This document shows positions 5,863 to 58,724 of a DNA stretch of 64,000 nucleotides, piece by piece; within the stretch, counting starts at the first letter, position 1, and the number at the start of each line of letters is the position of its first letter. Below the pieces are notes generated by a model. It searched no databases and was not told where the DNA came from. It saw nothing but the letters and a program-made list of their open reading frames with translations. The position numbers and the translations under genes are program-made. Origin of the DNA: Acidovorax sp. 106 (GTDB lineage: Bacteria; Pseudomonadota; Gammaproteobacteria; Burkholderiales; Burkholderiaceae_C); assembly GCF_003663825.1 (NCBI RefSeq), contig NZ_RCCC01000001.1, positions 3,542,501-3,606,500 on the forward strand, in the 5' to 3' direction.

Positions 5863-6783
5863 TTATGCCACGCGGCCGAGCAGAAGGTACTCCATGAGTG
5901 CCTTTTGCACGTGCATCCTGTTTTCTGCTTCATCCCACACTACGGATTGGGGGCCGTCGATGACATCAGCTTCCACCTCTTCGCCCCGGTGCGCGGGCAG
6001 GCAGTGCATGAAGAGGGCGTCGGGCTGGGCGGCAGCCATCATTTCGGCATCTACGCACCAGTCGGCAAAGGCCTTTTTGCGGGCCTCGTTTTCGGCCTCG
6101 TAGCCCATGCTGGTCCACACATCGGTGGTGACCAGGTCAGCGTCCTTGCAGGCTTCAAGGGGGTTGCTATAAAACTGATAGCTGCTTGCGCTTACTCCGT
6201 GAGCGCCAGAGGCCAATTTTTCATCAATTTCGTAGCCGCGAGGCGTGCTCACGTTGACCTTGAAGCCCAGTAGCGCAGCGGCCTGCAGCCAGGTGTTGGC
6301 CATGTTGTTGCCATCACCCACCCAGGCCACTGTCTTGCCCGCGATGGAACCACGGTGCTCGATGTACGTGAAGATGTCGGCCAGGATCTGGCAGGGGTGG
6401 TATTCGTTGGTCAGCCCATTGATGACCGGCACGCGCGAGTGCGCGGCAAAGCGCTCTAGCTTGGTCTGCTCGTAGGTGCGGATCATCACCAGATCGGTCA
6501 TGCGGCTGATGACCTTGGCGCTGTCTTCAATAGGCTCCGCGCGGCCCAGTTGGCTGTCGCCGGTGGTCAGGTGCACCACGCTGCCACCCAGCTGGTACAT
6601 GCCCGCTTCAAAGCTCACGCGGGTGCGGGTGCTGGCCTTTTCAAAAATCATGGCCAGCGTGCGGTCGACCAGCGGGTGGTGTTTCTCGTACGACTTGAAC
6701 TTTTTCTTGATGATCGCAGCGCGCTCGAACAGGTAAGCGTATTCGTCAGCGGTGAGGTCGGTGAACTGCAGATAGTGTTTCAT
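5863..6783 (-). CDS. argF: Ornithine carbamoyltransferase
   Basis: Cytoplasmic enzyme of arginine synthesis: ornithine plus carbamoyl phosphate gives citrulline. It has 306 residues, normal for the anabolic form. The carbamoyl-phosphate loop STRTR near residue 53, HPCQ in the middle, DVWTSMG and HCLPAHRGEE are all present. The ATG at 6783 is chosen over a TTG two codons earlier. The gene lies 38 bases downstream of argD and 12 bases upstream of the HD gene, so the three form an operon. The stretch around 6164-6220 matches the interspersed stem-loop repeat found six more times in the window. It encodes ASGAHGVSASSYQFYSN in a surface region that is variable in the family, and the active-site motifs are intact. 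Confidence 0.97.
   Translation of the reverse strand: MKHYLQFTDLTADEYAYLFERAAIIKKKFKSYEKHHPLVDRTLAMIFEKASTRTRVSFEAGMYQLGGSVVHLTTGDSQLGRAEPIEDSAKVISRMTDLVMIRTYEQTKLERFAAHSRVPVINGLTNEYHPCQILADIFTYIEHRGSIAGKTVAWVGDGNNMANTWLQAAALLGFKVNVSTPRGYEIDEKLASGAHGVSASSYQFYSNPLEACKDADLVTTDVWTSMGYEAENEARKKAFADWCVDAEMMAAAQPDALFMHCLPAHRGEEVEADVIDGPQSVVWDEAENRMHVQKALMEYLLLGRVA
6164..6220 (+). repeat. Interspersed stem-loop repeat, copy A (inside argF)
   Basis: Shares TTGCTAT, TGATAGCTGC, a GCGCTT half, a mirrored AGCGC half and AGAGGCCAATTTT with the six other copies. It is antisense to argF and leaves the frame open. The central palindrome is more decayed than in the intergenic copies. Confidence 0.75.
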
Positions 6784-6821
6784 GGGCAAAAAAGGGCCCG
6801 CCGTGGCGTGCCCTGCAAGGT

Positions 6822-8018
6822 TTATTCGGCCAGGATGGCTTTGACCAGAGGGGTGAGCTTGGCCACGATTTCGTCGGCCTCGGCCACGGTAAGGATCAGC
6901 GAGGGCACCAGGCGGATAACGCTGTCGGCCGTCACGCTGATCAGCAGGCCCGCTTCGGCGGCGCGGCCGGTGAGGGCGCCGCAGGGCTTGTTCAGCTCAA
7001 TGCCCAGCATCAGGCCCTGGCCACGGATTTCCTTCACGCCGCTCAGGCTGCCCAGCTCGCGCTCCAGCGCGGCCTTCAGGTGCGCGCCCACGGCGGCTGC
7101 GTTGTCGAGCAAGCCGTCTTCTTCCATGATGCGGATGGTCTCGTTGCCTGCGCGCATGGCCAGCTGGTTGCCGCCAAAGGTGGTGCCATGGTTGCCGGGC
7201 TGCAGCACATTGGCGGCCTTGGGGCCTGCCACCACCGCGCCAATCGGCACGCCCGAGCCCAGGCCCTTGGCCAGAGGCATCACGTCAGGCACGATGCCTG
7301 CCCACTGGTGGGCAAACCACTTGCCAGTGCGGCCCATGCCGCACTGCACTTCGTCAATCATCATCAGCCAGCCGCGCTCGTCGCACAGGGCGCGCAGTTG
7401 CTGCAAATATTCCACGCGGGTAGGGTTCACGCCGCCTTCGCCCTGGATGGTTTCAAAGAACACGGCGACCACATTGGGGTTGCCTTCGGTGGCCTTCTTG
7501 ATGGCTTCGATGTCGTTGAGCGGCACGCGCACAAAACCTTCGACCAGCGGGCCAAAGCCGCTGTAGATCTTGGGGTTGCCAGTGGCCGACATGGTGGCGA
7601 TGGAGCGGCCGTGGAAGGCTTTTTCGTAGACCACGATCTCGGGCTTGGCGATGCCCTTGTCCACGCCGTACTTGCGCGCGATCTTGATGGCGGCCTCGTT
7701 GGCCTCCAGGCCCGAGTTGCAGAAGAACACGTTGGTCATGCCCGAGCGCTCCACCAGCTTGGCTGCCAGCGCCTCTTGTAGCGGTGAGTGGTAGTAGTTG
7801 GAGGTGTGGATGAGCTTGGTGATCTGGTCTTGCAGCGCAGGCACCAGCTTGGGGTGGTTGTGGCCCAGCGTGTTCACGGCGATGCCGCCCAGCGCGTCCA
7901 GGTACTCCTTGCCGTTCACATCCCAGACTCGGCAGCCCTGACCGCGAGCCAGCGCAATCGGTACGCGGCCATAGGTGTTCATTACGTGGGGCGAGGCTGC
8001 CTCAATGAAAGCGGTCAT
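6822..8018 (-). CDS. argD: Acetylornithine aminotransferase
   Basis: PLP-dependent class-III aminotransferase of arginine synthesis, 398 residues, converting N-acetylglutamate semialdehyde to N-acetylornithine with glutamate as donor. Visible landmarks are CNSGLEANEAAIKIARK (PLP phosphate region), FHGRSIATMSATG, ETIQGEGG, MIDEVQCGMGRTG and the PLP lysine in MPLAKGLGSGVPIG. The frame stays open upstream of the chosen ATG, but GGAGA seven bases before 8018 and family alignment at MTAFIEAASPHVMNTYGR support this start. It is first in the probable argD-argF-HD operon and divergent from the DUF3579 gene. The same family can also act on succinyl-diaminopimelate. Confidence 0.96.
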   Translation of the reverse strand: MTAFIEAASPHVMNTYGRVPIALARGQGCRVWDVNGKEYLDALGGIAVNTLGHNHPKLVPALQDQITKLIHTSNYYHSPLQEALAAKLVERSGMTNVFFCNSGLEANEAAIKIARKYGVDKGIAKPEIVVYEKAFHGRSIATMSATGNPKIYSGFGPLVEGFVRVPLNDIEAIKKATEGNPNVVAVFFETIQGEGGVNPTRVEYLQQLRALCDERGWLMMIDEVQCGMGRTGKWFAHQWAGIVPDVMPLAKGLGSGVPIGAVVAGPKAANVLQPGNHGTTFGGNQLAMRAGNETIRIMEEDGLLDNAAAVGAHLKAALERELGSLSGVKEIRGQGLMLGIELNKPCGALTGRAAEAGLLISVTADSVIRLVPSLILTVAEADEIVAKLTPLVKAILAE

Positions 8019-8279
8019 GCAGAGATCTCCAGACGGTGCAAAAAAGGGTTGGGCTTGTGGCCCGCAATAGGTCGGTGATAGACCAGATACAGGGTCTTCA
8101 ACCCGAAAAACGAAGCACGATTCTAGGGGGAGAGCCATGGCTGGCTGTTGACAATTGCGCATCACTGCAATGCGTTACCCGACGACCCACTGGGAATACC
8201 GGGTTAGCTCTTATATAAGAGTTAGAATGCGGGGCCGTAGCAACACTGCGGTGAGCTGCCACTTACCCAAGCGACCCCG

Positions 8280-8603
8280 ATGGTTTCCCCCTCCACAAAA
8301 GAAGTCTTCATCCAGGGCATTACCCACGACGGGAAAACCTTCAGGCCCAGTGACTGGGCCGAGCGGTTGGCTGGCGTCATGAGCCAGTTCCGCCCCGGCG
8401 GTTCGCGGCCGGGCAGCCACCTGAGCTATTCACCCTGGTGCATCCCGACCACGCTCAATGGCATCAAGTGTGTGGTGGTGCACCGCGACCTGCGCGACCA
8501 TGAGCCCATGGCTTGGGACTTTGTGCTCAACTTCGCCAGGGACAACAGCTTGCAGGTGGCTGAAGCGTGCTTGCTGCCTGATGCCCCCACCCCGAAGGCC
8601 TGA
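8280..8603 (+). CDS. DUF3579 domain protein
   Basis: Protein of 107 residues from a betaproteobacterial family of unknown function. The whole length belongs to the domain, with the recognisable segments EVFIQGITHDGKTFRPSDWAE and VVVHRDLRDHEPMAWDFVLNFAR. It has no signal peptide or membrane helix and is predicted cytosolic. It is transcribed divergently from argD. This pairing with the arginine genes recurs in relatives as far as I recall, but no link to arginine metabolism has been shown. A strong terminator overlaps its stop codon. Confidence 0.88.
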   Translation: MVSPSTKEVFIQGITHDGKTFRPSDWAERLAGVMSQFRPGGSRPGSHLSYSPWCIPTTLNGIKCVVVHRDLRDHEPMAWDFVLNFARDNSLQVAEACLLPDAPTPKA

Positions 8604-8617
8604 CAGGCCTTTTTTTT
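8595..8617 (+). terminator. Intrinsic terminator of the DUF3579 gene
   Basis: Perfect 7-bp stem AAGGCCT/AGGCCTT with loop GAC, running into eight T. The stop codon TGA (8601-8603) lies inside the hairpin, so termination structure and coding end overlap. Confidence 0.9.
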
Positions 8618-8773
8618 CGCCCTCTGTTTTCTCGCACCTTGGCTTGAATTGCTTTGCCCATTGCTTGGGTGAGGCGGGTTTGCGCCCAGGCCGGTCACGC
8701 TCCACAAGCCGGGCGCTGTGATGTCGTGTGCTTGCGGCGTGGCGCTGGCTGAGTGTGCATGCATTGCGGGCAC

Positions 8774-8798
8774 AAAAAAACCGCCCGAAGGCGGTTTT
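8774..8798 (-). terminator. Intrinsic terminator of rpsT
   Basis: On the minus strand, AACCGCC, the stable tetraloop TTCG, GGCGGTT and a run of seven T, about 75 bases after the rpsT stop. The A/T flanks would also allow weaker termination from the other side. Confidence 0.92.
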
Positions 8799-8871
8799 GA
8801 TGTTTGCTGACAGCGCACCCGTTACAAACGGCGGGCAGCGGAGGCTACCCGTGCTGTTTGCCTGAAGTGGG

Positions 8872-9171
8872 TCAGGCGGCCAGTGCCAGGGCTTTCACCT
8901 TGGCTGCCAGGCGGCTCTTATCGCGAGCTGCCTTGTTCTTGTGGAAGATGCCCTTGTCTGCAACGGTATCGACCACGCTTTGTGCCTTGGCGAAAGCTTC
9001 AGCAGCCTTCACCTTGTCGCCAGCCAAAACAGCCTTTTCGACGTTCTTGACAGCGGTGCGGTATTTGGAACGCAGCGATGTGTTGGCTGCGTTGATCTTG
9101 ACGTCCTGACGGACGCGCTTGCGGCCCGACGCCAGGCGTGGGTTCTTTTTCTTTGGTTTAGCGGATGCCAT
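8872..9171 (-). CDS. rpsT: Small ribosomal subunit protein bS20
   Basis: Primary 16S rRNA-binding protein of the small subunit, 99 residues, normal length. The N-terminal Lys/Arg-rich segment ([19 protein letters not shown]) and the three-helix pattern ([32 protein letters not shown]) are typical. AAGGA lies eight bases before the ATG. It is monocistronic, divergent from murJ and closed by a TTCG-loop terminator. The rpsT/murJ divergent pair is a conserved arrangement in this bacterial group. Confidence 0.98.
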
Positions 9172-9415
9172 TATTTAATTCCTTGAGTCTGAGGATGATG
9201 CCAGCAAAGCCGATGATTATAGCCCACCCGGGGCGCAAGGGGCTAGTCCCTGTTTCGCCGCCTGGCGGTGAGCCGCTGCGGGCCCTGCCTTGGGCTTTCA
9301 CCATCGCCCGGTCCTGTGGGACGCCAGGGAGGCAATAGCCTGGTGGACGTAAGCGAGCGCAACAAGGGGCCCCGCTGCTCGGCTCGTACTGCGCGCAGCG
9401 AATACACTCCCGGCG

Positions 9416-10981: not shown

Positions 10982-11093
10982 TGGCCCCTGGCAGGTGGGG
11001 CTGCCAGGGCCCAGGCCATGACCGCCGAAATGCCGGGTGAATCCATGGGTTTTGCGCCTTGACGTTGCGGCCCGCTCGTTCTCAAAATCTGCC

Positions 11094-14176: not shown

Positions 14177-14333
14177 GAAGAGGAGAGGGCGAAAACGAAG
14201 AGCGGAGGTGCTGATGCCAGCGTGCAATGTTGCGGCGGTTGTGTGACTTTTTCATGACTTTTCCGTGGCTGTCATCACTTTGTCACTGGGGCTTGGCAGC
14301 ATCGGCGCCATCTTTTTTGCACTTCTGACCACC

Positions 14334-15248
14334 ATGCTCCAGAACGCCCCGTTCGACGCCCAGGACCTGATGCAGCGCATCGCCAACGATCTGATCGACA
14401 GCTACGACGAAGAGTTGGAGCTGGAGATTGAGGACCGCAACGTGGACGAAGAGGGCGACCTGGTTGCCACCGACAAGCTGGAGCGCCAGCGTTACTTCAA
14501 AGAGCTGTTTCGCCTGCAGGGTGAGCTGGTCAAACTGCAAGACTGGGTGCAGCACAGCCGCCAGAAGGTGGTGATCTTGTTTGAAGGCCGCGACGCGGCG
14601 GGCAAGGGCGGCGTCATCAAGCGCATCACCCAGCGGCTGAACCCGCGCGTAGCCCGCGTGGCGGCGCTGCCTGCGCCCAACGACCGTGAGCGCACGCAGT
14701 GGTACTTTCAGCGCTATGTGGCGCACCTGCCTGCGGCCGGTGAGATGGTGCTGTTCGACCGCAGCTGGTACAACCGCGCAGGCGTCGAGCGGGTGATGGG
14801 CTTTTGCTCTGACGACGAGTACGAAGAGTTTTTCCGCACCGTGCCTGACTTTGAAAGAATGCTCGTGCGCTCGGGTATCACGCTGGTCAAATACTGGTTC
14901 TCCATCACCGACGAAGAGCAGCACCTGCGCTTTCTGGGGCGCATCCATGACCCGCTCAAGCAGTGGAAGCTCAGCCCCATGGACCTGGAAAGCCGTGTGC
15001 GCTGGGAGGCCTACACCAAGGCCAAAGAAACGATGCTGGAGCGCACCCACATCCCCGAAGCGCCTTGGTGGGTGGTGCAGGCGGTCGACAAGAAAAAGGC
15101 CCGCCTCAACTGCATTGCCCACCTGCTGGGCCAGTTGCCATACCAGGAGGTGCCCCACGCACCCGTGGTGCTGCCAGACCGGGTGCGCAACCCCGAATAC
15201 CTGCGCCAGCCGGTGCCTGCCTCGATGTACGTGCCAGAGATGTACTGA
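14334..15248 (+). CDS. ppk2: Polyphosphate kinase 2 (PPK2), first paralogue
   Basis: Cytoplasmic kinase of 304 residues that moves phosphate between polyphosphate and nucleotides. Walker A GRDAAGKGG, the segment QWYFQRYVAHLPAAGEM, Walker B FDRSWYNRAGVERVMGF and the lid region DPLKQWKLSPMDLESR match the one-domain PA0141-type group. About 60 acidic N-terminal residues (DSYDEELELEIEDRNVDEE) precede the kinase core. The ATG at 14334 is chosen because the upstream frame encodes an unrelated hydrophobic stretch. A second PPK2 lies at 42665. Whether this copy prefers ADP, GDP or AMP cannot be told by eye. Confidence 0.93.
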   Translation: MLQNAPFDAQDLMQRIANDLIDSYDEELELEIEDRNVDEEGDLVATDKLERQRYFKELFRLQGELVKLQDWVQHSRQKVVILFEGRDAAGKGGVIKRITQRLNPRVARVAALPAPNDRERTQWYFQRYVAHLPAAGEMVLFDRSWYNRAGVERVMGFCSDDEYEEFFRTVPDFERMLVRSGITLVKYWFSITDEEQHLRFLGRIHDPLKQWKLSPMDLESRVRWEAYTKAKETMLERTHIPEAPWWVVQAVDKKKARLNCIAHLLGQLPYQEVPHAPVVLPDRVRNPEYLRQPVPASMYVPEMY

Positions 15249-15292
15249 CGAGAGGGTGTGGGCGAAGGTGTGAGCCAGTCTGTAGGGTGGTT

Positions 15293-15348
15293 TTGCTCCT
15301 GTTTTGGTAGCTGCTAGCGCTTATTTATCGAGCGCTAGGGGCTGAAAT
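15293..15348 (+). repeat. Interspersed stem-loop repeat, copy B (after ppk2)
   Basis: Well-conserved copy: TAGCTGCTAGCGCTT, seven-base loop, then a mirrored AGCGCTAG and GGGCTGAAAT. It starts 45 bases after the ppk2 stop in the sense direction. Confidence 0.85.
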
Positions 15349-15383
15349 GGCACCTATCCCACCTGGCCGGGCAAAGGTTCGCA

Positions 15384-16379: not shown

Positions 16380-16390
16380 CGCTTATTTTG

Positions 16391-19014: not shown

Positions 19015-19035
19015 GGGTAGGAGATAGATGCGAAA

Positions 19036-19086
19036 TATGCCTCTATCGCCCGATGGATAAGCGCAAGGCGCTATCAATTTTGAATA
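19036..19086 (-). repeat. Interspersed stem-loop repeat, copy C (minus orientation)
   Basis: On the minus strand: TTGATAGCGCC, TGCGCTT, loop ATCCATC, then GGGCGATAGAGGC. It begins 16 bases after the stop of the minus-strand AI-2E-type gene, again in the sense direction of that gene. It lies between two convergent genes. Confidence 0.75.
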
Positions 19087-19101
19087 GAATCGGCGGGCAA
19101 A

Positions 19102-24742: not shown

Positions 24743-25245
24743 GCGCGGCGGTGCCTGTGGATGTCTGGGTGGGCCTGGGCGCCAACCTGGGCGAGCGCGA
24801 GCAGGCGCTGCGCGAGGCCTTGCAGGCTATGGCCCGTTGGCCAGACACGCGGCTGGTCAATGTTTCGGCCTTGTACGCCAGCTCGCCAATCGATGCGGGT
24901 GGCCCGGACTATTTGAATGCGGTGGCCTTGCTGCGCACCACGTTGCCTGCGCTGGATGTGCTGCAGCGCCTGCAATCGATAGAGCAGGGCGCTGGCCGCG
25001 AGCGGCCCTACCGCAACGCTCCGCGCACGCTGGACTTGGACATCCTGCGCTATGGCAACGCGGAGCTGGACACACCCACTCTCACCGTGCCGCACCCCCG
25101 CATGGCCGAGCGCGCCTTTGTGCTGCTGCCGATGGCCGAAGTCTCGCCCGCGCTGGTGAGCGAGGCCGCCTTGCAGGCCGTGGCAGACCAGCGCATTGAG
25201 CGACTGCCAAAAGCCTGGGTGGCTGATTTGCTATCAAAAAAGTAG
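24739..25245 (+). CDS. folK: 2-amino-4-hydroxy-6-hydroxymethyldihydropteridine pyrophosphokinase
   Basis: Enzyme of folate synthesis that transfers pyrophosphate from ATP to hydroxymethyl-dihydropterin, 168 residues. GLGANLGEREQALREAL, YRNAPRTLDLDIL and VPHPRMAERAFVLLPM are typical. It is translationally coupled to pcnB. The last codons (LLSKK and the TAG stop) are supplied by copy D of the interspersed repeat, which implies that the original C-terminus was replaced or trimmed when the repeat arrived. Confidence 0.96.
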   Translation: MSAAVPVDVWVGLGANLGEREQALREALQAMARWPDTRLVNVSALYASSPIDAGGPDYLNAVALLRTTLPALDVLQRLQSIEQGAGRERPYRNAPRTLDLDILRYGNAELDTPTLTVPHPRMAERAFVLLPMAEVSPALVSEAALQAVADQRIERLPKAWVADLLSKK

Positions 25246-25283
25246 CTGCTGGCGCTTGATGGATAAGCGCTGCAGCCTATTTT
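25228..25283 (+). repeat. Interspersed stem-loop repeat, copy D (overlaps folK stop)
   Basis: TTGCTATCAAAAAAG, TAGCTGCTGGCGCTT, loop GATGGAT, then AAGCGCTGCAGCCTATTTT. It supplies the folK stop codon and ends four bases before the stop of the convergent Bug-receptor gene. Confidence 0.85.
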
Positions 25284-25286
25284 CTC

Positions 25287-26264
25287 TTAATCGACCTTGG
25301 CGCCCGAGAGCTTGACCACTTCCTGGTACCTGGCGCGCTCGCTGGCCATGAAGCTCTCAAACTGTTGCGGTGTGGTGGGCACAGGCTCGGCCAGCAGGGC
25401 GCCAAAACGGGTTTTGGTCTCAGGGGCCTGCAGCGCAGCCACAAAGGCCTTGTTGAGTTTGTCGATCACGGGTTTGGGCGTGCCCTTGGGGGCCACCAGG
25501 CCCCACCAGGTGTCGATGGAGAACCCCTTGAAGGTGTTGGCCATGGGGGGCACTCCGGGCAGTGCCGAAGAGGCCTCCAGTGATGTCACGGCCAGCGCCT
25601 TGAGCTTGCCTGAGCGGATGTTGGGCGCAGCCGCAGCCAGGTTGTCGATGTTGAAGTCCACCTCGCCTGCCAAAAGCGCCAGCTGTGCGGGGTTGGCCCC
25701 ACGGTAGGGGATGTGCAGCGCAAAGATGTTGGCGCGCTGCTTGAACATTTCTCCGGCCAGATGGCCCGCGCTGCCGTTGCCACCGCTGCCGTAGTTGAGC
25801 TTAGCGGGATTGGCCTTGGCGTAGGCGATGAGGTCTGCCAGGGTGTGGATCTTGAGTTGTTCCGCTTTGGCTGCGTTCATCACCAGCACATTGGGCACGC
25901 GCACCATCTGCGTGATGGCCGTGAAGTCTTTGCCCGCGTCAAAGGGCATCCGGGTGTAGAGCCAGGGGTTGACGGCGTGGGTGGCCGTGGCGGCAATGCC
26001 GATGGTCAGCCCGTCGGGTGCGGCTTTGGCAATGGCGTCTGCGCCGATGTTGCCGCCCGCGCCCCCCTTGTTATCGATGATCACGGTGCCCAGCGAGTCG
26101 CGCACACGCTCTGCCAGTGCCCGCGCCGTCACATCGATCGGGCCACCCGGCGCATAAGGCACGATCAGCCGAATGGGCTGCCCGGCGTCTTGCGCCAAGG
26201 TCAGCGGGGTGGAAAAGGCGGCGGTGACTGCCGCACTGGCAATGAGGAGGTTTCTGCGGTTCAT
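25287..26264 (-). CDS. Bug-family periplasmic solute receptor (TctC-like)
   Basis: Secreted binding protein of 325 residues with an N-terminal Sec signal (NLLIASAAVTAAFSTPLTLA). The family landmarks are IRLIVPYAPGGPIDVTARALAE, DNKGGAGGNIGADAIAKAAPDG and YGSGGNGSAGHLAGEMFK. Such receptors bind carboxylates or other small organic acids for tripartite tricarboxylate transporters. No tctA or tctB is adjacent, so this is one of the orphan receptors that are very numerous in Burkholderiales. The ligand is unknown. Confidence 0.9.
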   Translation of the reverse strand: MNRRNLLIASAAVTAAFSTPLTLAQDAGQPIRLIVPYAPGGPIDVTARALAERVRDSLGTVIIDNKGGAGGNIGADAIAKAAPDGLTIGIAATATHAVNPWLYTRMPFDAGKDFTAITQMVRVPNVLVMNAAKAEQLKIHTLADLIAYAKANPAKLNYGSGGNGSAGHLAGEMFKQRANIFALHIPYRGANPAQLALLAGEVDFNIDNLAAAAPNIRSGKLKALAVTSLEASSALPGVPPMANTFKGFSIDTWWGLVAPKGTPKPVIDKLNKAFVAALQAPETKTRFGALLAEPVPTTPQQFESFMASERARYQEVVKLSGAKVD

Positions 26265-41286: not shown

Positions 41287-41439
41287 GGCATGCACAGCAG
41301 CGCTTGACCACGCAGCCCCTGGAACTTAGCCCCTGAGAATCGCACTGCCAGAGCGGGCAAAGCAGCTGCCTATCACTGCACGCCTGGGCGGACCTAGAAT
41401 CGCTTGCGTCGGGCTTGGAGCTTTTTCACGCCCGGCAGC

Positions 41440-41612
41440 GTTCTCAGGGCGGGGTGAAATTCCCCACCGGCGGTATCTGTGGCCTCACAAGGTTGCAGGA
41501 GCCCGCGAGCGCCTGCAGGGCCGTTCCTTCTTGTGGAAGAACCACCCCGCAGGGTCAGCAGATCTGGTGCGATGCCAGAGCCGACGGTCACAGTCCGGAT
41601 GAAAGAGATCGC
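41440..41612 (+). promoter_or_regulatory. FMN riboswitch (RFN element)
   Basis: The conserved RFN blocks occur in order: TTCTCAGGGCGGGGTGAAAT, TCCCCACCGGCGGTA, then an extended arm, AGCCCGCGAGCG, GGTCAGCAGATCTGGTG and finally CCGACGGTCACAGTCCGGAT with GAAAGAGA. The spacing fits the FMN aptamer. About 200 bases of expression platform follow before the ribH start, including a GTGCC/GGCAC hairpin. When FMN is high it would lower lumazine synthase expression. Confidence 0.96.
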
Positions 41613-41815
41613 GAAACCATGGGCCTCCCGTTCAGTGGGGTGCCTGTGTGTGGTGCTGCGCGTGTAGCGGCGGCTGGCTTGCTGTCCCTTGTTGTGGCAG
41701 AGCAGGTGGGCTGCGCAATGTGCGTGGTGCTGTGCGCGGGTGCCTTTTGTGGCACGGGTGCCCTTGTTCGCGCGCCCTGATTCTGGTAACCCTTTCTTCG
41801 CAACGAGATAAGTCC

Positions 41816-42343
41816 ATGAATCAGTCCTTCCACTCCCATGCCGCAGCCGCCAACGCCGAGTTGGGCCGCACCAGCGCAGTGCCCCGCAACGAGCGCGTGG
41901 CCATTCTCTGCGCCAACTGGCATCGGGACATCGTTCACCAGGCCCGCGATGCTGCGGTGGCAGAGTTCGCTCGCAGTGGCTTGTCGCCCAGCCAGGTGGT
42001 GCACTACGAGGTGCCTGGAGCCTTCGAGATACCGCTGCTGGCCAAAAAGCTGGCGCGCAGCGGGCGCTACGACGCCATCGTGGCTTGCGCGCTGGTGGTG
42101 AACGGTGGCATCTACCGCCACGAGTTTGTGACCTCTGCCGTGATCGACGGGATGATGCGTGTGCAACTGGACACCGAAGTGCCCGTGTTGTCTGCCGTTC
42201 TCACCCCCCGCGACTTTCACGAGCACGAGGACCATCTGCGCTTTTACCGCGAGCACTTCGTGAAGAAGGGCGTTGAAGTGGCCCAGGCCTGCCTGGCCAC
42301 GCTGGACAATCTGAGCGCCCTGGTGGAGCCAGACAGTCAGTGA
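41816..42343 (+). CDS. ribH: 6,7-dimethyl-8-ribityllumazine synthase, RibH2-type
   Basis: Riboflavin-pathway enzyme of 175 residues that joins dihydroxybutanone phosphate and the ribityl-pyrimidine. CANWHRDIVHQARDAA, YEVPGAFEIPLLAKKLA, ALVVNGGIYRHEFV and VLTPRDFHEHEDH are present. The NGGIYRHEFV and DFHEH wording is that of the Brucella-type RibH2 branch rather than the usual RibH with GAT/H loops. It is preceded by an FMN riboswitch and is transcribed alone. A canonical ribH beside ribBA may exist elsewhere. The ribosome site is weak, consistent with riboswitch control. Confidence 0.93.
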   Translation: MNQSFHSHAAAANAELGRTSAVPRNERVAILCANWHRDIVHQARDAAVAEFARSGLSPSQVVHYEVPGAFEIPLLAKKLARSGRYDAIVACALVVNGGIYRHEFVTSAVIDGMMRVQLDTEVPVLSAVLTPRDFHEHEDHLRFYREHFVKKGVEVAQACLATLDNLSALVEPDSQ

Positions 42344-42664
42344 TTGATTTGCTATTAAAAATATAGCTGCTAGCGCTGGTGTATCAAGCGCTGAAGTGTA
42401 TTTTTATTTGGATTCTCAGCGGATGGCCGCCTCGGCGAAGTGGCTGGCCAGGGCGCTGCCGGATATTGCAAACCGTCTTGATGTCTGTCAAACCGCTGTG
42501 GGCCCTGCGCGCAAGAATGGTGCTTTTGACGATTTTGTGACGTACCCCCAGGTGTACCGTGAGGCCTGCTTCAGCGGCCTGGGGAGAGCCTTTGTCGATG
42601 CCCATGCACGCCAGCGTAGCCTGCAACGCTGCATGCGTGGGCGCCCCCCACCGGAGACCTTGCC
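42344..42664. other. Intergenic region between ribH and the second ppk2 gene
   Basis: Holds copy E of the interspersed repeat at its left end. The rest is open in several frames but shows no start with a ribosome site and no recognisable protein. The promoter of the second ppk2 gene should lie here. Confidence 0.5.
42349..42405 (+). repeat. Interspersed stem-loop repeat, copy E (after ribH)
   Basis: TTGCTATTAAAAATA, TAGCTGCTAGCGCT, loop, AAGCGCTGAAGTGTATTTTT. It starts six bases after the ribH stop, in the sense direction, and ends in a T-rich tail like a terminator. Confidence 0.85.
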
Positions 42665-43918
42665 ATGACCCAACGCCGCGCGCCCGCCACCCCTGTCTCT
42701 TCCCTCAGCGCTCCCAGCCCTGCTGGGGGCGCTGCGACTGCCTCGCGCCGCCGCGCACCCGCTGTGGCGGGTGCTGCAGGGGGCGCTGTGAAGGCCTCGC
42801 CACGCACGGTGCGCACCGTGGCCCGTGGGGATGTGTCGCCCAGCTTGCAGTCTGGCACTTTGGCCCGGCACGTGGCGCAGCAAGCGGTGCAGGCCGCGCA
42901 GGGGCAGCAGACGGCGGCGGTGTTGTCCTTGCTCAGCAGCGATGACGCCACCCAATCCACCCCGCAGCGCATTGCCAGCCTGCGGGCGCTGCTGGAGGGT
43001 GCATCGCAAGATGACCTGGAGGCGCTGCATGAAGCCCTGCGCCAGCACGCGGGCACGGGGGCCAACGGCGATCAGGATGCCGACGGTGTGAACCCCGACG
43101 AGGAGCTGGCCCGCGAGTGGCGCCGGGGGGCCTACCCTTACCGCAACCTGCTGCGCCGTTCCACCTATGAGCGCGAAAAATTCCGCCTGCAAGTGGAGTT
43201 GCTCAAGCTCCAGGCCTGGGTCAAGGAGACAGGCCAGCGCGTGGTGATCTTGTTCGAGGGCCGAGACGCTGCGGGCAAGGGCGGCGCCATCAAGCGCTTT
43301 ATGGAGCACCTCAACCCCCGTGGCGCGCGCGTGGTGGCGCTGCAAAAACCCACCGAGACCGAGCGCGGTCAGTGGTACTTCCAGCGCTACGTGCAGCACT
43401 TGCCCACGCAGGGCGAGATCGTGATGTTTGACCGCAGCTGGTACAACCGCGCCGGGGTGGAGCGTGTGATGGGTTTTTGCTCGGATGCCGAGTACGCCGA
43501 ATTCATGCGCCAGGCGCCCGAGTTTGAGCGCCACCTGGTGCGCAGCGGCGTGCATGTGATCAAGTTCTGGTTCTCGGTCAGCCAAAAGGAGCAGCGCCGC
43601 CGCTTCAAGGAGCGCGAGGCGCACCCGCTCAAGCAGTGGAAGCTCAGCCCCATCGACACCGCATCGCTCGATAAATGGGACGACTACACCCGGGCCAAAG
43701 AAGCCATGTTTTGCGACACCGACACGGCCGACGCGCCCTGGACGGTGATCAAGAGCGACTGCAAAAAGCGCGCACGCCTGAACGCGATGCGCTACGTGCT
43801 GCACAAGCTGCCCTATGCCGCGAAAGACTTGGCACGCCTGGGGGCCCTTGACCCTTTGATCGTGGGCCGCGCCCATGTGGTGTACGAACGCGGGGAGCAG
43901 CCAGGTGCTATTTTGTGA
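42665..43918 (+). CDS. ppk2: Polyphosphate kinase 2 (PPK2), second paralogue with N-terminal extension
   Basis: Kinase of 417 residues. The PPK2 core (about 165-400) has Walker A EGRDAAGKGGAIKRF, QWYFQRYVQHLPTQGEI, Walker B FDRSWYNRAGVERVMGF and the lid DPLKQWKLSP-like HPLKQWKLSPIDTASLDKWD. It belongs to the same one-domain group as the copy at 14334. The first ~150 residues are Ala/Arg/Gln-rich, probably disordered at first (ASRRRAPAVAGAAGG) and then helical (RHVAQQAVQAAQGQQ). That extension is absent from the first copy and may direct localisation or binding. Confidence 0.93.
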   Translation: MTQRRAPATPVSSLSAPSPAGGAATASRRRAPAVAGAAGGAVKASPRTVRTVARGDVSPSLQSGTLARHVAQQAVQAAQGQQTAAVLSLLSSDDATQSTPQRIASLRALLEGASQDDLEALHEALRQHAGTGANGDQDADGVNPDEELAREWRRGAYPYRNLLRRSTYEREKFRLQVELLKLQAWVKETGQRVVILFEGRDAAGKGGAIKRFMEHLNPRGARVVALQKPTETERGQWYFQRYVQHLPTQGEIVMFDRSWYNRAGVERVMGFCSDAEYAEFMRQAPEFERHLVRSGVHVIKFWFSVSQKEQRRRFKEREAHPLKQWKLSPIDTASLDKWDDYTRAKEAMFCDTDTADAPWTVIKSDCKKRARLNAMRYVLHKLPYAAKDLARLGALDPLIVGRAHVVYERGEQPGAIL

Positions 43919-47081: not shown

Positions 47082-48353
47082 TCAAATGGCTTTGGCGGCC
47101 CGCAGCGCTGCAATGCGCGCGTCGTCCAGTCCCAGCTCACGCAGCACCTCGTCGGTGTGCTGGCCCAGGGCCGGAGGCGCATTGCGCAACACAGGAGGCG
47201 TGGCCGACAGGCGCAGCGGGCTGGCCACACCGGTGATCTGTTGCACGCCATCGCCTGTCTCGCCGTCCTTCCACCGTGGCAACGATACGGCCAGGCCGCG
47301 CGCCTGCACTTGCGCGTCGTCAAACGCTTGGGCAATCGTGTTGATGGGGCCGCAGGGCACGGCCTTGTCTTCCAGCAGGGCGATCCAGTCGGCCGTGGTG
47401 CGTGTGCGCGTCACGGCCTCCATGGCGGGGATCAGTACGGTGCGGTTTTGCACGCGCAGCGTGTTGGTGGCATAGCGCGGGTCGCTGGCCCACTGGGGCT
47501 GGCCTGCGGCGGCGCAAAAGCGCTGGAACTGCCCGTCGTTGCCGATGGCCAGCAGCATGTTGCCGTCGGCGGTCGCAAAGTCCTGGTAGGGCGCGAGGCT
47601 CGGGTGGCTGTTGCCCATGCGGCCAGGCGCCTTGCCGGTGGCGAGGAAGCCCGAGGCCTGGTTGGCCAGCACGGCCATGCCCACGTCGAGCAGCGCCATG
47701 TCGATGTGTTGGCCCTGGCCTGTGCCATTGGTGGCGTTGTCGCGCACATGCAGCGCGGCCAGGATGGCATTGCTGGCGTACAGGCCGGTGAACAGGTCAA
47801 TGACGGCCACACCCACGCGCATCGGGCCGCCGCCGGGCTGGCTGTCGGCCTGGCCGGTGATGCTCATGAGGCCCGTCATGGCCTGCACCATCAGGTCGTA
47901 GCCCGCGCGCTCGGCATAGGGCCCGTCTTGCCCGAAGCCGGTGACGGAGCAGTAGATGAGGCGCGGGTTGAGCGCGCGCAGGCTCTCGTGGTCCAGGCCG
48001 TATTGCTTGAGGCCGCCGACCTTGAAGTTCTCCACCACGATGTCGGCCTCTTGCGCCATCTGCCGGATGAGCGCCTGCCCGTCGGGCGAGGCCATATCGA
48101 TGGTGACGGAACGCTTGTTGCGATTGCAGGCCGTGTAGTAGCTGGCCTGGTTCGTGTCGTTGCCCTCAGCGTCCTTCAAGAAGGGCGGGCCCCACTGGCG
48201 TGTGTCGTCGCCCACGCCGGGGCGCTCCACCTTCACCACATCCGCACCCAGGTCGGCCAGGATCTGCGTACACCAGGGGCCTGCGAGCACGCGGGAGAGG
48301 TCGAGCACCTTGATGCCTGCGAGGGCGCCAGCGTTAGGGGAGGGGGTGGTCAT
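47082..48353 (-). CDS. CaiB/BaiF family III CoA-transferase, probable succinate/glutarate CoA-transferase
   Basis: CoA-transferase of 423 residues. VLDLSRVLAGPWCTQILADLGADVVKVE is the family N-terminus, cited by its parts LAGPWCTQ and ADVVKVE. The catalytic-type Asp lies in GQHIDMALLDVG near residue 180. Linkage to the glutaryl-CoA dehydrogenase gene and a LysR regulator is the known gcd arrangement, where this enzyme loads CoA from succinyl-CoA onto glutarate. A 237-base gap with a repeat and a long inverted repeat separates the two genes, so coexpression may be reduced. The repeat copy F lies immediately before the start. Confidence 0.88.
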   Translation of the reverse strand: MTTPSPNAGALAGIKVLDLSRVLAGPWCTQILADLGADVVKVERPGVGDDTRQWGPPFLKDAEGNDTNQASYYTACNRNKRSVTIDMASPDGQALIRQMAQEADIVVENFKVGGLKQYGLDHESLRALNPRLIYCSVTGFGQDGPYAERAGYDLMVQAMTGLMSITGQADSQPGGGPMRVGVAVIDLFTGLYASNAILAALHVRDNATNGTGQGQHIDMALLDVGMAVLANQASGFLATGKAPGRMGNSHPSLAPYQDFATADGNMLLAIGNDGQFQRFCAAAGQPQWASDPRYATNTLRVQNRTVLIPAMEAVTRTRTTADWIALLEDKAVPCGPINTIAQAFDDAQVQARGLAVSLPRWKDGETGDGVQQITGVASPLRLSATPPVLRNAPPALGQHTDEVLRELGLDDARIAALRAAKAI

Positions 48354-48357
48354 GGGG

Positions 48358-48413
48358 GACTATTAAATTGATAGCTGCTAGCGCTTTTCTATCAAGCGCT
48401 AGAGGCCTAAAAC
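48358..48413 (+). repeat. Interspersed stem-loop repeat, copy F (before the CoA-transferase gene)
   Basis: The cleanest copy: CTATTAAATTG, ATAGCTGCTAGCGCTT, loop TTCTATC, AAGCGCTAGAGGCC. It is antisense to the adjacent gene and begins four bases upstream of its start codon, so it would lie in the mRNA leader and displace the normal ribosome site. Confidence 0.9.
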
Positions 48414-48443
48414 ACTTGAAATTCGCGTAGGAGGGCACCGTTT

Positions 48444-53190: not shown

Positions 53191-53212
53191 CGGATGAATG
53201 CTGGGGCGTGAA

Positions 53213-53788: not shown

Positions 53789-53866
53789 GAAAGGCTCCTA
53801 AAAAACCAGAGGTTGAAAGAAAAGATCGCAGGGAGAGAAAAGGACGGCTCTAAAGGCGCTTGCGCC

Positions 53867-54436: not shown

Positions 54437-54495
54437 GAAAACTCCTTGGTGCGGAAAAGGTGAGCAGCGCAGTGGGGCTGCAGGGGTGTGGGGGC

Positions 54496-55071: not shown

Positions 55072-55447
55072 GGGCAGTTGGGTCGAAGGGGTTATTGAAC
55101 GGGGCCGCCCGTTGGGTGCTGCAGCCGGTGCACTGGGTGCAATGCCTGCAGTTTAGGAAGAGCGCCCCTGTGGCAGTTTCAGGTGGATTGATGCCTTGAT
55201 TCAAAAAAACTGAATTGATAAGGCTTTTGCGCTCAAAGTTCCCCAATGTTTGAGGGGCGCATGCGACTTGCTGTCGCCGTCTCGTCTTGACGCGGGTCAC
55301 GACGCCATGGAGGCAGAGGTATGCACAAAGAGCGGTTCAAACCCTATTGCTCTGGATGTTGAGCACCACCGCTGCGCGTGCGGTGGGCTCTGGATGGGTT
55401 GGCTTGGAGGCCTGGGGTGCTGCTAGCCCCCGGCGCAGGGCTGCGTC
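55072..55447. other. Intergenic region between hemY and the cytochrome b561 gene
   Basis: No gene supported in 376 bases. It holds an imperfect inverted repeat GCCTTGATTCA/TGAATTGATAAGGC (55192-55223) and CTCAAA/TTTGAG (55232-55254). They probably belong to the promoter or operator of the minus-strand cytochrome b561 operon, or to the hemY 3' end. Confidence 0.5.
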
Positions 55448-56725
55448 TCAGTGCTGCAGCGCCGCTGCTTTCCAGGCTTGGGCGGCGGCGTCTGCATCGC
55501 CACGCTGTTCTGCCAGCTCGGCCAAATGCCGCCATGCGCTGGCGCGCAGGGGGGCGTCATGCAGGTGGGAACTGGCCTGGGCCAGCAATTGCTGGGCTTT
55601 GCCCCACAGCTGCCGCTTCAGGCAGGCCATGCCTGCGAGGTATTGCAGGCGGGCATCGCGCGGGTTGGATTGCTGTGCCGATTCGATGCGGGCCAGCCAG
55701 GCTGCATCGATGGTGTCCAGTCCGTCTTCCAGCGAGCGGATCAGCTTGAGTGCCAACCCCTCGGGCAAGCCCTCTGGCAGGTCCACCATGCGCTCCCACA
55801 CGGGCAGCAGCCAGGCGCGCACCTGGTTGGCGTCTCCACCCAGATGGGCCAGGCGCTGGGCGGCCTGCACGGCCAGCTCGGGCATATTGCGCTCGGTGTT
55901 TTCCAGCGAGGTCCAGATTTGCACCAGTTGCACTGGGTCGTGCGCCGACTGGATCAGCTCTGTGGCCAGGCCCCGCACAATGCTTTGCGCCGCTCCCGCC
56001 GAGAAGGCGCGGTGCTTGCCTAGCAAGCGGGCTGTGTCGAGTGCCTCGCTGGTTTGGCGAGCCTGGCGCGTGGCCTTGAGCTTGATGCGCAAGGCCAGTG
56101 TGCGGCGGGCGGCGCCTTGGGGCAGGGCGGCTAGGCGCTCCAGGGTGACTTGGGGGTCGCGGTCGTCCAGGCTCCAGCGCGCCGCTCGGATTTGGGCACC
56201 TTCACGCATTTCTTGCTCTTGGCCATTGCCGCGCACGGGAGCTTCTTCCAGGGCGTTTTGCAGATGGCTTTCGCGGGTGGCACGGTCTTGCAGGGCGTGG
56301 GACGATTCGGCGGCGATCAGGTGCGCCAAGGCGCGCAGTTGTTTGCCGTGTGGAACGGGCTCACCCGCCGCCTGCAGGGCGCTTTCTTGGGAGATGGATG
56401 CCAGCGCCGATTTGCGAGAGCGCAGAAAACGCCCCGCCAGCATGTGTGTGAGGGCATCGAGCAACGCGTGGTGCATGGCGCGCTCTTTTTGCTGCACGCG
56501 CCAGCGGCGTGCCTGGTGCGGCAACTCCAGCAGCGCTGCCAGCGCCCGCAGCGCGGCGTACACGGTGGTGAACCCGCCCACCAGCAGCAACACGACCAAG
56601 TTGAGCGACAGGTCGACGCGGTAGGGGGGCCAATACAGGGTGATGGTGCCCTGGTTGTTTCCTGCAAACAGCGCGGCCGCTACGGCAACACCAAACAGAG
56701 CCAAAAGCCAAAGAGCTGCACGCAT
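55448..56725 (-). CDS. hemY: HemY, TPR membrane protein of the haem operon
   Basis: Inner-membrane protein of 425 residues. Two N-terminal helices (ALWLLALFGVAVAAALFAG and SLNLVVLLLVGGFTTVYAAL) precede a long cytoplasmic or periplasmic TPR-like helical domain. Motif GNNQGTITLYWPPYRVDLSL between the helices is typical. It is associated with haem synthesis by operon conservation, and its role is not understood. It is not the Bacillus protoporphyrinogen oxidase of the same name. It is last in the hemCDXY operon. Confidence 0.9.
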   Translation of the reverse strand: MRAALWLLALFGVAVAAALFAGNNQGTITLYWPPYRVDLSLNLVVLLLVGGFTTVYAALRALAALLELPHQARRWRVQQKERAMHHALLDALTHMLAGRFLRSRKSALASISQESALQAAGEPVPHGKQLRALAHLIAAESSHALQDRATRESHLQNALEEAPVRGNGQEQEMREGAQIRAARWSLDDRDPQVTLERLAALPQGAARRTLALRIKLKATRQARQTSEALDTARLLGKHRAFSAGAAQSIVRGLATELIQSAHDPVQLVQIWTSLENTERNMPELAVQAAQRLAHLGGDANQVRAWLLPVWERMVDLPEGLPEGLALKLIRSLEDGLDTIDAAWLARIESAQQSNPRDARLQYLAGMACLKRQLWGKAQQLLAQASSHLHDAPLRASAWRHLAELAEQRGDADAAAQAWKAAALQH

Positions 56726-56787
56726 ATTAGTTTTCCAATGCTCCGCGAGCGTCCTGGACCTTCAAAAGCGACTCAGGGTGCATCATC

Positions 56788-57912
56788 TCATCGTCCCGCT
56801 GCGGCCGTAGCCAGTGCAGACAGGGTTTCGTCCAGCCGGGGTAGCTCGGCGTCCTTCATGTGCTGCTGGGCTTGTTGCAGCATGGTGGCTGCGTTTTGGG
56901 TGCGGCGCGATGCGGGGTCGAAGTACTTGTTCAGTGCGGCCGTGGCAGCCGTCAGGTCCGCGCGGGCAGAGTCAAACTGCCGGGCCAGCACGCCCAGTCG
57001 GGCGTTGAGTAGCTTGAGTTTGAGGTTTTCGCGCAGGAAAAAAGTTTGCTCGGGTGCCAGCAAAATGGCCTCGGGCTGGTCGATGCGGCTGACGCGCACC
57101 AGCCCACGGGCTTCGTCGCGCACGACTTCCCAGCTGCGCTGCAGTGCAGCTTGCCACCACGGCATGGCTGGGTCTTCGGCGGTGCCCGTGCTACTGGCTG
57201 GGGTTGCTGCTTTGCGGGTGCCAGGGGCTTGTGCCACGGCGTTGAGCACGGGCAGTTCATCCACTTGGCGCACCAAGTCGTCCAGGCGGCCCAGCAGGCC
57301 TGCGGTGTCGGTCACGGTGGCGCGGGTCAGCCGATCCAGGTCGCGCGCAATGGCCCTTTGCAGGGGGGCCAGGCGGGGCTGGGCAGCCCGGTCAATGCGT
57401 TGGTGGGCGGTTTTCAGGGTGGCGACCAGGGGCTCCAGGCCGCCGGTGAGCTGGGCCTGTTGCTGCGCCAGTCGAATGGCCGATTCAATGTCCACCACCA
57501 GGTTTTCGTCGCGTGAGCGCGACAGGCTTTGCATCAGCTCTTCCAGTTGGCTGCGTTGCAGGGCGACTTCGCTCACCCGGGCTTCGGCCACCGAGAGGCG
57601 GGCGGCGGTCTCGCGCACCTGGTCTTCTGCCTGACGGGCAATGGTGCGGGCCTCGATGGCCAGCGTGCCCGAGTCGGCCGATTGCCGGGCCAGTTGCTCT
57701 TGAATGCTGCTGAGTTTTTGCCACAGCAGGACGCTGCTGGTCAGTGCAGCAGCGGCCACGGCCCCCAGCAGCAGGTTGGCCAAGCCCATGCCCGCCGTGC
57801 CGCTGGGGCGTGTGGGGGCAGCAACAGGGGGCGCTGCCTGGCCTGGATGGGATGCGGCTGGAGCTGCGGGCGCAGGGGGCTGCGGCAGATCAGTGGGGGG
57901 CACAGAACTCAT
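56788..57912 (-). CDS. hemX: HemX-like membrane protein
   Basis: Membrane-anchored protein of 374 residues. A Pro/Ala-rich cytoplasmic leader (about 1-50) precedes one helix (LLLGAVAAAALTSSVLLWQ). After it come long coiled coils (QEQLARQSADSGTLAIEARTI) and a globular C-terminal half with VSRIDQPEAILLAPEQTFFL and LRENLKLKLLNARLGVLARQ typical of the HemX family. It was once thought to be a uroporphyrin methylase, which is no longer held. The start overlaps the hemD stop (ATGA). Its function is unknown. Confidence 0.88.
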   Translation of the reverse strand: MSSVPPTDLPQPPAPAAPAASHPGQAAPPVAAPTRPSGTAGMGLANLLLGAVAAAALTSSVLLWQKLSSIQEQLARQSADSGTLAIEARTIARQAEDQVRETAARLSVAEARVSEVALQRSQLEELMQSLSRSRDENLVVDIESAIRLAQQQAQLTGGLEPLVATLKTAHQRIDRAAQPRLAPLQRAIARDLDRLTRATVTDTAGLLGRLDDLVRQVDELPVLNAVAQAPGTRKAATPASSTGTAEDPAMPWWQAALQRSWEVVRDEARGLVRVSRIDQPEAILLAPEQTFFLRENLKLKLLNARLGVLARQFDSARADLTAATAALNKYFDPASRRTQNAATMLQQAQQHMKDAELPRLDETLSALATAAAGR

Positions 57913-58724
57913 GCGCCCGATTCTATCGATGCCACCACGTCCGCCAAGGCGGGGCGGCATTCCCGCACCTCGCCAAACCCGGCGTCGCGCGCAGCCTGGG
58001 CGATGCGCGGGTGCGTTGCCAGTGCGCGTGCCGTGTGCCAGTTTTGCTGGGGCAGGGCGGCCGCGAGATGGGCCACGGCTTCAGAGCTACTGAGCAGCCA
58101 GAGCGATCCACTGTGGGCGGCTTGCCGTGCCAGGTCCAGGTCTTGGGCTGACAGGTGGGGGGCTGTGCGCTCGTAAGCCACCACAAAGTCCACCTGGGCG
58201 CCTGCGGCTTCGATCTGGCGGGCCAGCCAGTCGCGGCCCGAGCCCTGGCTCTCATGCACCCCGGCAGAGCGCCCGCGCACGATCAGGATGCGGTCACCCG
58301 CCTGCACTTGGGGGTGGACTTGTTGCCACAGGGCTTCGGAGTCAAATTGCGGTGCATCGGGTGCAGGGCCGTCGATGCGCTCGGCCGGGAACCCCGCCTC
58401 CAGCAGCGCCCTTGCAGTCCCCGGGCCGGGTGACCATGCTCTTGTTTTGATAGCTGCCAGCGCTTGATTAGAAAGCGCTAGGACCATATTTTGTTCAAAA
58501 AAGTACAGCGCCGCGTTGCCGCTGACGAACATGGCGGCGCGGTAGTCGCCCAGGCGCGCACGGGCTTGATGCAGCGCTTGTACAAGGACCGGGTCTGCGG
58601 CTGGGCCGACATGGATCAGGGGCAGGGCTGTAGCGGCGATGCCCCGTTGGGTGAACTGCTGTACCCAGTGCGCAGCCTCGCGTGCGGGGCGGGTGACGAT
58701 GACCTGGGGGGCTGCAGCGGTCAA
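57909..58724 (-). CDS. hemD: Uroporphyrinogen-III synthase
   Basis: Enzyme of 271 residues that inverts and closes the tetrapyrrole. The family is weakly conserved, but VIVTRPAREAAHW, MFVSGNAALYFFEQ, SPGPGTARALLEAGF and DFVVAYERTAP are right. The start is TTG at 58724, 18 bases after hemC, with no alternative ATG. The segment at 58437-58493 matches the interspersed repeat (copy G) and encodes NMVLALSNQALAAIKT, a loop between two core strands, longer than usual. The enzyme is probably functional, but this segment is worth checking. Confidence 0.9.
   Translation of the reverse strand: MTAAAPQVIVTRPAREAAHWVQQFTQRGIAATALPLIHVGPAADPVLVQALHQARARLGDYRAAMFVSGNAALYFFEQNMVLALSNQALAAIKTRAWSPGPGTARALLEAGFPAERIDGPAPDAPQFDSEALWQQVHPQVQAGDRILIVRGRSAGVHESQGSGRDWLARQIEAAGAQVDFVVAYERTAPHLSAQDLDLARQAAHSGSLWLLSSSEAVAHLAAALPQQNWHTARALATHPRIAQAARDAGFGEVRECRPALADVVASIESGA
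58437..58493 (+). repeat. Interspersed stem-loop repeat, copy G (inside hemD)
   Basis: CTTGTTTTGATAGCTGCC, AGCGCTT, loop GATTAGA, AAGCGCTAGGACCATATTTTG. It is antisense to hemD, and the reading frame passes through it without a stop. Confidence 0.85.

Follow-up and report, generated by a model that had tools for sequence, protein, structure and literature searches.

A dispersed palindromic repeat retained at shared chromosomal sites in Acidovorax and related genera, possibly as DNA sites for a binding factor

The window analysed here is a 64-kb stretch of the genome of Acidovorax sp. 106, and it carries seven copies of a dispersed repeat of about 63 bp with a GC content of 45%. The initial annotation of this DNA had described seven copies of a stem-loop repeat of about 55 bp; the places and orientations it gave were all correct and the copies do form one family, although the unit is longer. 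Together with 25 other genomic copies, the seven window copies make up one gapless alignment of 75 columns, with the layout TT-GCTAT-N7-ATAGC-TG-CTAGCGCTT-N7-AAGCGCTAG-AGGCC-A/T tract-AAA. The core is palindromic, as described, but comprises two inverted repeats rather than one, GCTAT-N7-ATAGC being followed by CTAGCGCTT-N7-AAGCGCTAG (A and B, in that order, in what follows). Both loops measure 7 nt; the loop that had been given as 5-8 bases has this length in all seven copies when they are set in a common register. A covariance model built from the 32-copy alignment (R1) recovered all seven copies, with E values of 3e-17 to 5e-10, and a scan of the window at E values up to 1 hit these seven places only, six further rows being the same places on the opposite strand. 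The copies and their surroundings are as follows.

6159..6233, plus strand: copy 1, antisense in argF (ornithine carbamoyltransferase by sequence, 5863-6780, minus strand), in frame; R1 68.7 bits, E 1.5e-16.
15288..15362, plus strand: copy 2, between convergent PPK2 polyphosphate kinase and AraC-type regulator genes (Pfam); R1 62.9 bits.
19019..19093, minus strand: copy 3, the weakest, between a PHB-depolymerase-type esterase gene and a convergent gene with a sub-cut-off AI-2E transporter match; R1 45.2 bits, E 4.9e-10.
25223..25297, plus strand: copy 4, between convergent HPPK and TctC genes and overlapping the former at its 3' end; R1 55.4 bits.
42344..42418, plus strand: copy 5, right after the stop codon of lumazine synthase and upstream of a same-strand PPK2 gene (42665-43918); R1 59.1 bits.
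48352..48426, plus strand: copy 6, the best in the window, between tandem minus-strand acyl-CoA dehydrogenase and CoA-transferase III genes; R1 71.1 bits.
58431..58505, plus strand: copy 7, antisense in hemD (uroporphyrinogen-III synthase, 57909-58724, minus strand; Pfam HEM4, E 3.9e-23), in frame; R1 61.8 bits.

Copies 1 and 7, placed at 6164 and 58437 by the initial annotation, lie within the argF and hemD coding sequences with in-frame read-through, a point absent from that annotation. As single-stranded DNA, the copies fold modestly better than shuffled sequences (z -0.16 to -2.99). The ends of the consensus are not mutually inverted repeats, as was checked with the terminal repeats of miniature inverted-repeat transposable elements (MITEs) in mind. 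No curated Rfam family matched the repeat in the window at the gathering score; the sole match was a flavin mononucleotide (FMN) riboswitch at 41436-41614 (103.4 bits), with the lumazine synthase gene (41816-42343) shortly downstream and copy 5 after that gene. The two PPK2 polyphosphate kinase genes of the window (14265-15248 and 42665-43918) each have an adjoining repeat copy.

The earlier estimate of several hundred copies per genome was borne out. The genome (4.88 Mb, one contig) contains 169 exact AGCGCTT-N7-AAGCGCT sites, compared with none for the reversed control, and R1 found at least 150 matches with E<1e-9, where fewer than about twenty had been named as speaking against such a family. 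All 150 candidates scored fell below this E value and, since they were the best 150 of 2831 first-look candidates, the number is a lower bound. A matrix from the same alignment located 30 copies in 200 kb including the window and none in three shuffled versions of it, which extrapolates to about 700-730 copies per genome. There was no strand bias along the chromosome among the 150 places.

Genera among the matches listed in a scan with the exact consensus include Acidovorax, Simplicispira, Comamonas, Polaromonas, Extensimonas, Paenacidovorax and Giesbergeria. With R1, which was used to score at most the best 150 candidates per genome (32-33 in large sets), matches were obtained in 51 of the 145 genomes, representing 49 of the 141 genera, sampled in the bacterial family to which Acidovorax sp. 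106 belongs, and in 4 of 150 genomes drawn across the order, three of the four being from that same family. The densest genome seen, G015, has 74 copies in 200 kb (370 copies/Mb), several of them at sites not common to other genera; G002 has six diverged copies in the 60 kb sampled, and the repeat was absent from 120 kb of G018 and from 60 kb each of G007 and G114. Eight genomes served as element-free references, six of them with 0 matches in the family survey, G114 with 0 in the order-wide draw, and G053 lying outside the 51 matching genomes. We found no description of this repeat family in the open-access literature; the passages of PMC2755013 on the relevant terms concern CRISPR alone.

To follow the copies between relatives, 200 kb of Acidovorax sp. 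106 was compared with G323, G341 and G340, at nucleotide identities of 92.2%, 84.6% and 83.3%, respectively. Among the copies of Acidovorax sp. 106 with mappable flanks (4, 11 and 11 of the 30 being unmappable), a copy was found at the same place in 26 of 26, 18 of 19 and 17 of 19 cases. Insertion polymorphism amounted to one candidate absence in these 64 mapped comparisons, with two more sites below threshold at equal length. The site of copy 2 (15288) is filled in G323, and the copy is apparently absent in G340, where the intergenic region measures 39 bp instead of 135 bp. In a comparison by orthologous gene pairs, the counterparts of intergenic regions with a copy in Acidovorax sp. 106 were filled in 36 of 37 cases within the genus and in 8 of 8 across G120, G136 and G128, which belong to other genera at 71-75% mean protein identity. 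Regions empty in Acidovorax sp. 106 were filled in its same-genus relatives in 1/72, 0/50 and 0/64 cases (1/186 overall), and in G120, G136 and G128 in 1/15, 0/11 and 1/20 (2/46 overall). Coding copies with an orthologous gene were kept within the genus in 6/6, 5/5 and 5/5 cases. With G015, one of one site was in common, and G015 has two further copies that Acidovorax sp. 106 lacks; Acidovorax sp. 106, in turn, has two copies where the element-free G018 has none. Intergenic regions with the element exceeded those without it by a median of +34.5 (56 comparisons, sites repeated), against +9 in 315 controls, a measure too noisy to fix the ends of the element. The syntenic copies of copy 6 (48352) in G341 and G340 scored in the opposite orientation, which may reflect an inversion of the palindrome in place or separate insertion events.

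These data bear on the proposal of the initial annotation that the repeat is a mobile palindrome, of the MITE type or of the type of repetitive extragenic palindromic (REP) elements. A dispersed palindromic family is what we found, and an insertional origin in the past is likely, in view of the discrete copies, the lack of half-sites and the longer HemD loop in many element-bearing genera. Mobility at present in the genus did not stand: the comparison for empty sites in close relatives, whose absence had been named as counting against the proposal, came close to finding none, with the single candidate given above, and clean empty sites were too few for target-site duplications of the MITE kind to be read. 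The family seems to have stopped moving in this genus. A REP/REPIN- or MITE-type element still mobile, and moved in trans by a REP-associated tyrosine transposase (RAYT) or another transposase, would suit the hundreds of copies, the palindromic core and the bias to extragenic 3' positions, as well as some genus-specific copies, the 370 copies/Mb of G015 going together with 20 Y1-transposase matches. We nevertheless regard it as improbable, as the fixation of copies within the genus already largely refutes it for the present there.

A linked transposase, for which the initial annotation had suggested a search, was not found: the single Y1/RAYT-type gene found in the genome, its one PF01797 match, has no adjoining copy, no palindrome having been seen in the sequence around it and no such repeat found in its 3.3-kb locus. 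Of the relatives tested, 9 of 12 without the element and 22 of 23 with it had genes of the Y1/RAYT type, which are thus not associated with the element, and present RAYT-driven mobility was largely rejected on both grounds. When a single copy was used as query, 5 of 72,556 plasmid records and none of 50,697 phage records matched, which likewise argues against an element that still moves. The Y1-transposase matches themselves, 37 in G341 and 20 in G015, include many with identical scores and resemble IS200-type bursts.

The tag of REP elements, GTAG or CGTC, sits at one end of the palindrome. In our repeat, the four bases directly 5' of hairpin B (columns 20-23) read ATAG in 121, GTAG in 19 and otherwise in 28 of 168 copies, a set obtained from 178 copies by dropping ten with a matrix score under 10; this xTAG is a further point in favour of a mobile element. 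The GTAG and CGTC tags are named in the title of PMC3733652. With REP/REPIN elements and their RAYT transposases, the subject of PMC2817692, PMC3733652 and PMC3116915, the repeat shares its occurrence as short palindromes in the hundreds, most of them outside genes at 3' ends, and a TAG 5' of the hairpin. Unlike those elements, the repeat has no adjoining RAYT gene, occupies sites common across species and some genera, shows genus dialects, and has in-frame coding copies. In the available text of PMC3733652 and PMC2817692, Acidovorax, Delftia, Comamonas, Polaromonas and Burkholderiales are unmentioned, and Betaproteobacteria appear once, in PMC2817692 only. The beta-proteobacterial repeat element (BRE), as far as the available part of Hot et al. 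2011 (PMC3110155) describes it, is also a repeat of Betaproteobacteria including Comamonadaceae, usually intergenic and with some copies in coding sequences. It measures about 90 bp, has 69% GC in Bordetella, reaches 1-29 copies per genome in the table of that paper, and is tandem at some loci; the present repeat, with 45% GC, about 63 bp and about 700 dispersed copies per genome, differs from BRE as described there in GC content, length, number and arrangement.

The placement of the copies relative to genes was determined with a purpose-built, non-standard codon-usage gene caller. By these calls the repeat is mainly extragenic, 23 of the 30 copies in the 200 kb of Acidovorax sp. 106 lying outside genes: 11 were convergent, 12 tandem and none divergent, the spacers of these three kinds numbering 27, 93 and 25, respectively, and 7 were coding, argF and hemD included. 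A larger set of 221 copies, from Acidovorax sp. 106, three other genera and 80 named loci, comprised 68 convergent (24.8 kb), 104 tandem (83.3 kb), 10 divergent (24.8 kb) and 24 coding copies (984 kb), as well as 15 at edges. Such a strong preference for convergent spacers and 3' ends, with copies rare between divergent genes, together with the A/T tract after arm B, would fit a function at the RNA level, in which the repeats are bidirectional terminators or 3' mRNA stem-loops serving stability or as RNase barriers. We treat this as the main rival explanation, though an unlikely one. Copies in tandem spacers of the 221-copy set showed no strand bias (48 in the same orientation and 56 in the opposite one), and A stands in place of T at tract columns 59-61 in 38, 35 and 23 of the 168 copies, both of which argue against it.

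Covariation was absent or weak, which counts against a conserved RNA hairpin. In the 32 copies it was no better than in shuffles. In 178 pooled copies, arm A showed none; the 80 named loci had been drawn by the exact core pattern, which biases their copies to the consensus, and 82 exact-pattern copies were dropped for the pooled analysis. Among ten genome sets, stem B showed pairing beyond shuffles in two (g340, p.005; g002, p.009), a result on the side of RNA-level function as is a weak pooled signal in arm B (see below), whereas the other eight sets had no excess. In G002 (6 copies), the pairs 30:48, 32:46 and 34:44 are mostly mismatched (paired in 0, 16 and 16%), leaving arm B mostly unpaired. 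Since covariation is weak or absent and these pairs are mismatched, the palindrome is less conserved than the sequence boxes.

In intergenic orthologues (n=12 in each comparison), identity between Acidovorax sp. 106 and G341 was.91 in arm A,.81 in arm B,.39 in loop B and.46-.48 in the far flanks; the corresponding values for G340 were.94,.80,.61 and.48-.50. Paralogues within the genome of Acidovorax sp. 106 reached.84,.75,.37 and, in the flanks,.28-.31, so that orthologues exceed paralogues in every region except loop B (G341) and the TG pair (G340). All 178 copies, which come from several genera, have AGC at columns 22-24, a figure for which some bias is possible because the search matrix rewards AGC. 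In the A/T tracts (columns 14-18 and 58-61) there were 36 A<->T changes vs 21 between A/T and G/C, compared with 70 vs 217 in loop B and the far flanks. This pattern is consistent with reading of duplex DNA shape, and a need for A/U-rich single strands would fit it equally. The same data speak against an old repeat without function, homogenised by gene conversion with some vertical inheritance. Such a process would suit the genus-wide consensus sequences, which in a deviant genus extend to a site it has in common with others (see below), but the similarity of paralogues is just about 0.75-0.84 in the arms and 0.28-0.47 in the loops and flanks, leaving little for gene conversion to act on, orthologues are the more alike with the two exceptions named, and the A/T-only substitution pattern is not expected from conversion. 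We consider it the least probable of the explanations weighed here.

Constraint was also examined within the two coding copies of the window. Of the 58 genomes examined, 39 have a recognisable hemD copy, and the eight element-free ones all lack it, presence having been counted with a gapless matrix that overlooks copies with indels. In Acidovorax sp. 106 and 18 of the 19 copy-bearing loci of the first set (L321, L312, L317, element-free genera and the 20 positives of the second set were left out), the fraction of identical residues that use the same codon was.77 inside the copy vs.54 elsewhere; 71 equal windows used as a control gave a mean of.54, a standard deviation of.04 and a maximum of.61. 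Residues were less conserved inside the copy (.48) than elsewhere (.63). Because the synonymous excess is present despite this lower residue conservation, the constraint acts on nucleotides, and nucleotide constraint within a translated gene is a further point against RNA-level function. In argF, R1 matched at the same place in 30 of 30 same-genus loci fetched (of 47 genomes), with 16.4-68.7 bits and a weakest E of 0.094. A simple insertion of 21 residues was rejected, ArgF of Acidovorax sp. 106 being just 3 residues longer than most copy-free homologues. The HemD stretch measures 75 nt in most copy-bearing genomes and 87-132 nt in some genera; without a copy it measures 54-63 nt in five genomes and 72 and 84 nt in two others (G009 and G018). 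An insertion followed by deletion may have taken place in HemD and ArgF. Part of the argF 3' end (window 5867-5922) is repeated beside argF in G085, G333, G187 and G329, at 89-98% identity over about 55-63 bases.

Rickettsia palindromic elements are palindromic repeats that occur in frame within protein-coding genes. By description, the present family resembles them in having in-frame coding copies that are absent from element-free homologues (hemD, as counted above, and argF), and differs in that most copies are intergenic, with a coding minority that includes argF and hemD.

A side result concerns the Pfam family DUF1010 (PF06231), genes of which were hit in a plasmid search with the repeat. 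DUF1010 is a protein model, found here in integron cassettes that lie next to resistance genes, whereas the repeat is DNA and mostly untranslated. A repeat copy lies inside DUF1010 genes at L433:689-763 and L434:684-758 (plasmids NZ_MZ513635.1 and NZ_KJ588780.1), the two copies scoring 61.6 and 33.1 matrix bits; DUF1010 cassettes are treated in the available part of PMC11616780. Among eight translated repeat-bearing frames of named genomes, drawn from 35 frames preselected by an ASS-type motif, five matched the N-terminal third of PF06231, four of them weakly and sub-cut-off; the Paenacidovorax caeni frame matched over the full model. Part of DUF1010 is probably a translated copy of the chromosomal repeat, and this bacterial family may be the source of DUF1010 cassettes. 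In this way a protein that is carried by resistance integrons and has remained uncharacterised would be partly explained.

The majority sequence of the repeat varies by genus. In place of the GCGCTT ... AAGCGCT of Acidovorax, G099 shows GCCCA ... TGGGCT, and the majority sequence of G002 has AAGGGCTA on its right side. We scored the hemD copies over columns 26-56 with matrices of nine genera chosen for the availability of sequence. The G099 copy reached 21.8 bits with the matrix of its own genus and no more than 7.7 with any of the other eight; that of G002 scored highest with the G099 matrix (18.2 bits), followed by its own (18.0) and that of G121 (16.2), the remaining matrices giving 11.5 bits or less. 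The hemD site, which is common to these genera, carries the local dialect in deviant genera.

DNA uptake signals (DUS/USS) likewise comprise many fixed sites, include inverted-repeat copies and have lineage dialects, and they grade into mismatched sites. A signal of this kind, spread and kept by biased uptake in transformation, would be in keeping with the high copy number, the fixed positions, the presence of both intergenic and coding copies, and the genus dialects. Unlike DUS/USS, however, the repeat is a long and composite unit of about 60 bp without half-sites: every left-half match of at least 16 bits in the 200 kb fell within a full copy, and none outside. The lack of graded single sites in this region counts against an uptake signal, which we regard as very improbable.

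Conservation at the same sites suggests that the repeat has turned into a set of functional DNA sites; the sites are old, fixed, constrained, biased to 3' ends and neutral as to strand. The hypothesis we prefer, with slightly more belief than doubt, is that an old palindromic burst, now immobile here, has been kept as several hundred fixed duplex-DNA sites read by a putative binding factor. On this view, an ancestor shared by Acidovorax and its related genera would have had its chromosome colonised by an element of about 63 bp, whose insertions fell mainly into intergenic spacers at 3' ends and at times, in frame, into genes; movement would then have ceased in this lineage, with several hundred fixed double-strand sites retained. 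A sequence-specific DNA-binding protein would read the duplex site, the A/T tracts by shape or minor groove, and AGC and GCGC by base. It may act on chromosome folding, on supercoiling or topology, or on colliding transcription at 3' ends, and would have co-evolved with its sites upon the change of genus dialect. We put forward only tentatively, as doubtful in its full extent, the wider proposal that several hundred protein-recognised sites arose from bursts and became locked in many genera, the recognition sequence having shifted wholesale in some while hemD-like sites stayed. This would be a co-evolving dialect system of sites and factor rather than an uptake signal, the putative factor shaping the chromosome or managing transcription collisions at 3' ends.

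Several observations weigh against retention of the repeats as binding sites. Both the binding protein and its chromosomal role are predicted from sequence patterns. The cross-genus synteny sample is small (8 intergenic copies of Acidovorax sp. 106), and coding copies were kept in just 1/1, 1/2 and 1/2 cases in G120, G136 and G128. The pairs G136/G128 and G136/G015 have no sites in common, with three solely in the second genome of each pair, and G015/G002 have none in common, with six solely in G015; bursts must therefore also have occurred after the split of genera, beside the shared old sites. The hemD copy ranks the own-genus matrix first in just 4 of 9 cases. It is not recognisable in G312 and G306, two of the seven same-genus genomes of the hemD set (a total that counts Acidovorax sp. 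106), and the same holds for nine genomes whose genera have copies at other places, among which G070 shows remnants; no single copy is therefore indispensable. No argF copy is recognisable in several element-bearing genera (G136, G128, G010, G190, G295 and others), and in Acidovorax sp. 106 and 21 loci picked as element-bearing this copy has no synonymous excess (same-codon fraction.72 vs.74 elsewhere), so that it now looks like plain coding sequence. Finally, the 178 pooled copies show a weak pairing excess in arm B, both sides of pair 28:50 being changed in 25 copies vs 16.6 expected (p.0035), with p.04 for pair 35:43.

Dispersed bacterial palindromes are usually regarded as mobile or decaying, whereas the sites of this family are fixed in relatives at 83-92% identity, and partly across genera, and are constrained. 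Since they are retained at the same places under measurable constraint, it becomes possible to test in ordinary environmental bacteria whether a burst of repeats was exapted into several hundred maintained sites. Should the binding factor exist, it would be an abundant, undescribed chromosome-associated protein of this bacterial family.

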